From: a virus
Reading direction: 5' to 3' (one strand)
Length of the DNA stretch: 22,241 nucleotides
Virus record (IMG/VR): IMGVR_UViG_3300035670_001341
Location: 1 to 22,241 of that record
Positions within the stretch are counted from its first letter, which is position 1. Each line of letters starts with the position of its first letter. This document shows, in pieces, positions 6,357 through 10,096 of this stretch. Position numbers and translations under genes: made by a program. Under the pieces are notes generated by a model. It was not told the origin of the DNA. It did no database searches and saw only the letters and a program-made list of their open reading frames with translations.

Positions 6357-6382
6357 GGGTGAGATTAATTTCTCACCCTTTT
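6357..6382 (+). terminator. Rho-independent terminator after the capsid gene
   Basis: A perfect 8-bp stem, GGGTGAGA with TCTCACCC, closes a 6-nt loop TTAATT and is followed by TTTT. It starts 20 nt after the capsid stop codon and ends 26 nt before the tail tube gene. It would lower transcription from capsid to tail genes. Confidence 0.85.
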
Positions 6383-6966: not shown

Positions 6967-6998
6967 AAAACCCACTTCATCATCGGAGTGGGTTTTTT
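6967..6998 (+). terminator. Rho-independent terminator after the tail tube gene
   Basis: CCCACTTC pairs with GGAGTGGG (one T-G wobble) around the loop ATCATC. The flanking AAAA and TTTT extend the stem, and a run of six T follows. It starts about 20 nt after the tail tube stop codon, so the next gene probably needs its own promoter. Confidence 0.85.
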
Positions 6999-9220: not shown

Positions 9221-10096
9221 ATGGCAAGTCAACAAATAGTACATAATAACGCTACAAACTTCTCTTTGTATTACAACGTTCTAAATTATTTTAAAACGAT
9301 AATGACGAACCACCCATCTATTGGACACGTAACACAAGGTGATGTTTTCAGTATAGATGATAGAGAATTTCCAATGTATCCCGTTGGTAATATCTTAGTG
9401 CAAGGTGCTAACTTTGGTAGTAACATAACTGAATATCAAATTCAATTGATTGTTGCTGATAAAACCAAATTAAAAAATGATGAATCAGAGGGTGAAACAA
9501 ATAGTCAAGAAATTCCGTACTATGGAGTGGATGATGTGGTTGATATACATGCAAATACTTTGAGTGTCCTGAATGATTTAACCTCATATACACAAAGGAG
9601 TGTAGAGGGGTTTGAAATCAACGGAGAGATAAGTTGTGAACCCTTTAAAGATAAGTTTGATAATGGACTGGCAGGTTGGTCCGCAACATTCGACCTGACG
9701 GTTCACAACGACAAAAATCGTTGTCTTTTTTTTTTAATTAATCCATCTGGAAGTTATTATAGAATAGAAGATTGCGAAACGGGTGATATATACAATGCAG
9801 TAACTGCAACAACTGGAAGTATCGGACAAGTATTTGCTACAAACATTTATCCAAGCTCTCAACCAATCAGTTACTTGCAGAATTATGAAAATATAAAATG
9901 TTTTACAATATTAGAAGAGATAACTGGTAGAGATAATTACGATTTCTACAATTTACCAATTCTATCAATACCTTACTACGATTTTGGAAATTGTGCATTA
10001 TGTGAATTATGGACATCACCAAAAGTGTGGGGTACAACACCAGAGAAGTGGGGTACAGGAGTTGATGTAGCATTAAGAAAGTGGCAATACACATAA
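9221..10096 (+). CDS. Neck or tail-completion-like protein with extra C-terminal domain
   Basis: This 291-residue protein has two parts. Residues 1-~168 form a region I recognise from marine phage genomes (FKTIMTNHPSIGHVTQGDVF, EFPMYPVGNILVQGANFG, VDDVVDIHANTLSVLNDLT, FDNGLAGWSATFDLTVHNDK), found near the connector and likely at the head-tail joint. After the T10 run (residues 169-172) comes an added part with DCETGDIY, GQVFATN, KCFTILEE and CALCELW, a cysteine layout like exchangeable adhesion domains of such phages. It ends with spaced tryptophans (WTSPKVWGTTPEKWGTG), perhaps the original C-terminus. The gene starts 6 nt after its neighbour with the leader ATAAAAACTTATGGC. Virion role likely; exact role uncertain. 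Confidence 0.6.
   Translation: MASQQIVHNNATNFSLYYNVLNYFKTIMTNHPSIGHVTQGDVFSIDDREFPMYPVGNILVQGANFGSNITEYQIQLIVADKTKLKNDESEGETNSQEIPYYGVDDVVDIHANTLSVLNDLTSYTQRSVEGFEINGEISCEPFKDKFDNGLAGWSATFDLTVHNDKNRCLFFLINPSGSYYRIEDCETGDIYNAVTATTGSIGQVFATNIYPSSQPISYLQNYENIKCFTILEEITGRDNYDFYNLPILSIPYYDFGNCALCELWTSPKVWGTTPEKWGTGVDVALRKWQYT
9725..9742 (+). other. T10 slippage-prone tract inside the neck-like gene
   Basis: Codon 169 (CTT) begins a run of ten T at 9726-9735, followed by AATTAAT. In the annotated frame it reads Leu-Phe-Phe-Leu-Ile-Asn. With one extra T the frame meets TAA after 173 residues; with one fewer T it meets TAA after 171. The zero-frame codons also fit a U-UUU-UUU slippery heptamer. Slippage in either direction would therefore make a short product ending at the domain border. 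Confidence 0.5.

Follow-up and report, generated by a model that had tools for sequence, protein, structure and literature searches.

A run of ten T at the domain border of a phage tail-terminator gene is conserved beyond the needs of the protein and of codon use, and very probably it is kept so that one gene supplies the short, undecorated protein as well as the long, decorated one. The window that we analysed comprises 22,241 nt of IMG/VR virus record IMGVR_UViG_3300035670_001341 (positions 1-22,241). Working from sequence, with no RNA, protein or read data, we consider it likely that terminator subunits of both kinds, plain and decorated, arise from this one gene by programmed transcriptional slippage. 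That two functional forms come from one gene is a stronger claim than any as to which machine slips.

The anatomy of the site can be read directly from the sequence and is set out in Table 1. An earlier sequence-only reading had placed ten T at a domain border in this gene, and the window sequence has the run exactly there. The base before it is C9725, and with its neighbours the run makes up codons 169-172 of the ORF. Removing one T gives TTT TAA and an end after 171 residues, adding one T gives TTT AAT TAA and an end after 173 residues, and only the exact T10 gives 291, all as that reading had stated. Two runs of T9 or longer were seen in the window compared with 2.8 expected from shuffles that took account of DNA composition only. 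This count is not exceptional, so chance cannot be excluded from the window alone. The significance of the run rests on its relatives, that is on the presence of T10 in 208 homologous genes and on the lack of any synonymous change at codons 169-171.

Table 1. Features of the tail-terminator gene and its T10 run (window coordinates)
Feature	Position	Strand	Basis or remarks
Full-length 291-aa product (tail-terminator domain and C-terminal extension)	9221..10096	+	ORF, translation, structure model, fold matches
Tail-terminator domain, residues 1-168	9221..9724	+	Fold matches; short-only relatives end just past the domain
Inverted repeat ACAACGA-CAAAAA-TCGTTGT, putative RNA hairpin	9705..9724	+	Terminator-like; 1 nt before the run
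T10 run, putative slippery site	9726..9735	+	In-frame CTT TTT TTT TTA; also holds U_UUU_UUA
TAA stop for one-T-fewer mRNA (171-aa product)	9735..9737	+	Immediate stop by TAA/TAG/TGA in 45/45 clusters
TAA stop for one-T-more mRNA or -1 ribosomal shift (173-aa product)	9739..9741	+	Stop after 1-3 codons in 45/45 clusters
C-terminal extension, residues 173-291	9737..10093	+	Alignment, four invariant Cys; no Pfam family

An AlphaFold2 model of the 291-aa protein, built with 28 relatives (pLDDT 66.9), has two domains and a low-confidence joint at residues 165-176, exactly where the run sits. Structure comparison of this predicted model matched residues 14-163 to lambda gpU (3fzb; Z 12.3, rmsd 3.1 over 125 residues) and also to T5 p142, Mu, R4C, SaPI1 and Chi, and nearly all among the 50 fold matches listed are terminator, neck or connector structures. 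On the model, the fold of the N-terminal domain is that of a tail terminator, and the earlier description of the gene as neck-like was right as to place. Known tail terminators are hexameric rings at the upper (head-proximal) end of the tail (PMC11784142); for the protein studied here a hexameric ring is inferred and only the gene position is known. The portal gene and a DUF6712 gene lie upstream of the terminator gene, as do the capsid and presumed tube genes, and low-copy tail genes lie downstream. There are strong terminator-like intergenic hairpins at 6357-6378 (after the capsid-like gene) and 6967-6996 (after the presumed tail-tube gene).

The domain border is real, in that short-only relatives terminate 4-5 residues past the same Arg-Cys. 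The C-terminal extension had no match in a Pfam scan and none in the PDB by sequence. An alignment shows that its four Cys (185, 227, 258 and 261) are invariant in 28 relatives and are possibly metal-binding or disulfide-bonded; the extension belongs to no known family. Oversized terminator genes, all with T10, were seen at L055 (611 aa), L060 (1092 aa) and L142 (447 aa). At these three loci and at L102, glycine-rich repeats and T/S-rich linkers past the border resemble parts of tail fibres or adhesins.

The first search gave 50 loci, with long forms of 282-295 aa and short-only forms of 172-173 aa, some of 186 aa. Within this set T10 is present in every long form and there is no run in the short-only forms. 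The short relatives that the sequence-only reading had guessed at thus exist (172-174 aa), and some relatives encode the short form only. That reading had also called for a homopolymer to be sought at the same border in relatives; in IMG/VR, 208 long-form genes, which fall into 45 clusters at 80% identity, have exactly T10. A degenerate pattern that allowed every synonymous codon retrieved more than 120 contigs, one of them without T10. Additionally, a border-blind query with the C-terminal domain alone retrieved 70 contigs, of which 68 have T10, one T11 and one T9, and none is without a run. The long frame is broken in both variants: L206 (T9) has a product ending RCLFF and L176 (T11) one ending RCLFFFDNT, and these may be real or homopolymer errors. 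By tail-terminator protein no relatives were found in the phage isolate collection, and none were found in GTDB genomes. Portal matches among isolates were confined to the Nonlabens phages P12024S/L (36%) and, weakly, a Methanobacterium virus, and the tail-terminator profile gave no clear match when compared with P12024S. The isolate closest by portal sequence has a marine bacterial host, genus Persicivirga/Nonlabens.

Selection on the run is observed at the nucleotide level. Synonymous changes were counted among the run-bearing tips of a tree of 79 representatives, and codons 169, 170 and 171 had 0, 0 and 0, where the mean was 15.6 over 64 columns. For comparison, the conserved Phe codons 24, 142, 157 and 205 had 14, 21, 20 and 13 such changes. 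Leu172 switched between TTA and TTG 11 times on the tree but never to CTN, and CTN was not found at this position in the full IMG/VR scan. The peak of synonymous conservation in the gene spans codons 162-173. In 611 kb of related DNA there are 36 coding T7 runs, one T8, five T9 and 61 T10, and 59 of the 61 T10 runs are at the terminator-gene site.

The stops in the shifted frames are also under selection and are kept by varying codons. All 45 clusters have an immediate stop in the one-T-fewer frame. In the one-T-more frame a stop follows within 1-3 codons in every cluster (mean 1.3, compared with 6.6 expected), and none of 500 protein-preserving codon-shuffled sets had stops equally close. Where the first one-T-more stop is lost by a change of ATT to ATA, the next usually comes from CCT followed by AA, AG or GA. 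A small number of loci that are not cluster representatives reach the one-T-more stop only after five codons. G never follows TTG at Leu172 (Fisher p = 6e-4, with no correction for relatedness), which is relevant because G there would destroy the one-T-fewer stop. The shifted-frame tests count clusters as independent, and the clusters are not fully so.

These results bear on the suggestion that the run is a mere module-border sequence kept by recombination that exchanges the C-terminal domain, or merely a consequence of AT-rich codon use. The C-terminal regions are highly variable (L055, L060 and L142) and the GC content is 33%, as either would have it. However, coding T-runs drop in number with length, from T7 to T8, except at the terminator-gene site; there are no synonymous changes at the run although neighbouring codons vary; and the shifted-frame stops are selected. 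We give this explanation, which the last two results already disfavour, practically no weight.

The sequence-only reading had named relatives with this join but no homopolymer as an outcome that would refute it, and we searched all of IMG/VR exhaustively for genes that encode the peptide border but have the run broken in any way. Five contigs (L118 and L245-L248) have such long forms, and in every one of them a separate, tandem gene for a 174-residue plain terminator, ending RCLFELYPN, adjoins the long gene. This backs the idea that two forms are needed. All five are also without the CGT hairpin codon. No run-less long form is without the short gene, and T10 genes occur with it in 19 cases and without it in 190 (Fisher 1.2e-5, with no correction for relatedness). 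The run was lost independently three times on the tree, each time within duplicated lineages; as these make up 18% of branch length, the probability of this by chance is about 0.006 (0.178^3 = 0.006). A pair test on the tree had too few pairs to reach significance. That a dedicated short gene stands in for the lost run suggests, at the level of sequence, that the short product is probably needed by the phages and that the run is how most of them make it. Counting against this reading, the 19 loci that keep the run despite having a dedicated short gene are unexplained. L118 alone was dropped as a decisive case because a tandem short gene is present at 14 run-bearing loci as well; it is informative on account of the exhaustive scans for run-less forms and the tree. 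Loci at which T10 and a tandem short gene were seen together are L061, L079, L087, L093, L095, L119, L121, L122, L137, L152, L156, L157, L165 and L210.

The same data can be set against a replication-slippage contingency locus, in which populations would switch between T10 (decorated) and T9 or T11 (plain) genomes. Contigs with T9 and T11 do exist, but off states are usually numerous at phase-variable loci, and here 68 of 70 contigs from the unbiased search have T10. Moreover, a short gene in place of the run better fits a simultaneous need for both forms. We regard a contingency locus as highly improbable.

The inverted repeat lies directly 5' of the run, as in stem-loop-mediated slippage; that slippage depends on the stem is inferred. 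The hairpin has a predicted energy of -7.0 kcal/mol and 3 GC pairs. Most of its pairs are dictated by the protein sequence, and the selection signal is limited to the codons for Arg167 (CGN) and His162 (CAC). Summed over the 45 clusters, the hairpin energy is -243.7 compared with -36.8 (sd 11.9) under synonymous shuffling, the core stem is complete in 64% of clusters compared with 11% in the null, and Arg167 is CGN in 42 of the 45 clusters where about 20% would be expected. The energy of the hairpin across relatives, -2.4 to -8 kcal/mol, marks it as weak, and L083 has none.

The geometry of the hairpin and T10 is like that of an intrinsic terminator, with a U-tract in place and a weak, AT-rich stem. 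An intragenic attenuator formed by the hairpin and U10 would make the tail genes downstream less strongly expressed than the capsid and tube genes, and the gene order, with the capsid and presumed tube genes upstream and low-copy tail genes downstream, would suit this. However, the stem is weak, a U-tract does not require an unbroken T10, and attenuation leaves unexplained the stops in both shifted frames, the position at a domain border and the loss of the run only where a short gene has been added. An attenuator therefore seems improbable.

The main rival, which is not excluded, is programmed -1 ribosomal frameshifting at the in-frame U_UUU_UUA/G in the style of E. coli dnaX, to give the 173-residue short form. 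A perfect in-frame slippery heptamer (X_XXY_YYZ) is present in all 45 clusters, the -1-frame stop is kept, and the product would be nearly the same as that of slippage. The tail chaperone of the same phages also has a -1 arrangement like that of lambda G/GT, where the shift is ribosomal (PMC5009743). However, frameshifting needs only about seven of the ten T, yet codons 169 and 170 are invariant, and the stop in the one-T-fewer (+1) frame is kept too. The hairpin is upstream and touches the run, where it would lie under the ribosome. Additionally, RNA structure downstream of the run showed no excess (z +1.1 to +3.2, less folded than synonymous shuffles, in predictions that leave pseudoknots out of account), which argues against a simple 3'-stimulated ribosomal shift. 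We consider frameshifting unlikely and favour polymerase slippage because it accounts for why the run is a full ten T long, for the stop in each shifted frame and for the hairpin on the 5' side, but that the polymerase slips rather than the ribosome remains an inference.

We propose that RNA polymerase slips on the ten T in a share of transcripts, aided by the hairpin that the nascent RNA would form right behind the run; that this happens in vivo is inferred. An mRNA with exactly ten U, or with a change of three, would be translated into the full terminator of 291 residues, C-terminal domain included, and mRNAs of other run lengths would meet a prompt stop and give a plain terminator of 171 or 173 residues. 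In the terminator ring, which is hexameric in known phages, plain and decorated subunits may then be mixed, although both the mixed ring and the ratio of the two forms are inferred.

In a tail-chaperone-like gene of these phages all the homologues that we examined have T9-T10, and this is possibly a second slippage site. Neither this run nor the hairpin next to T10, nor the keeping of both shifted-frame stops across relatives, had featured in the sequence-only reading. The -1 frame after the run opens a conserved extension of 84-90 codons, on the plan of lambda G/GT. This gene is outside the window but is present in the near-identical sister genome L254. The chaperone run was seen at L254, L249-L253, L255 and L256 (near 1986-1996), and further at L059, L065, L083, L087, L116, L123, L143, L144 and L153. 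RNA-polymerase slippage on T9-T10 could be a general setter of structural-protein ratios in this widespread phage lineage, truncating the terminator so that plain and decorated subunits stand in a set proportion in each neck ring and extending the tail chaperone, but we offer this only tentatively and stop a little short of favouring it.

Transcriptional slippage has precedents in Thermus dnaX, Shigella spa33/mxiA and Roseiflexus IS630 (PMC5009743), and E. coli RNA polymerase has a preference for slipping on T runs at least 7 long (PMC6260861). As in dnaX of Thermus thermophilus (tau/gamma; PMC5009743), an A/T run of 9-10 lies in one long ORF with near stops in both other frames, and there would be full-length and truncated products. 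In contrast with dnaX, a cellular replicase subunit, the gene described here encodes a phage tail terminator and has an abutting hairpin, and some phage lineages have swapped the run for a duplicate gene. Roseiflexus IS630 (Penno 2015, in PMC5009743) likewise has an inverted repeat directly 5' of the run with terminator-like geometry, but with U5C5, a GC-rich stem and slippage that restores an extended product, where we find U10, an AT-rich stem and truncation. In Citrobacter rodentium tssM, where slippage is on A11, one structural protein has two length variants, and both forms and their ratio are needed (PMC4256274); there, in a bacterial T6SS, slippage gives the long form, and the abstract reports no abutting hairpin, whereas slippage here would truncate. 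The programmed frameshifts by which coat and tail proteins of phages gain Ig-like domains, in T3/T7 gene 10 and Listeria A118/A500/PSA (PMC5009743), also place a C-terminal decoration on a share of subunits. Those shifts are ribosomal and extending, whereas in this tail terminator the long product comes from the default frame and a shift would truncate it. The fold of residues 14-163 is shared with the lambda gpU, T5 p142 and Mu terminators (PMC11784142), but the extra C-terminal domain, the presence of which would be set by the proposed recoding, is not.

Among the papers searched, none combined transcriptional slippage with a tail terminator, and no report of recoding in this neck protein was found. 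Slippage that shortens the product has been described in a small number of cellular genes. In this large environmental phage group it appears to be fixed, and the lineages that lost the run and carry a separate short gene provide a natural control. This suggests that gene callers miss the second product of such genes. The proposed slippage also offers a testable route to how phages may come to decorate some subunits in a ring, and not others, with extra domains.
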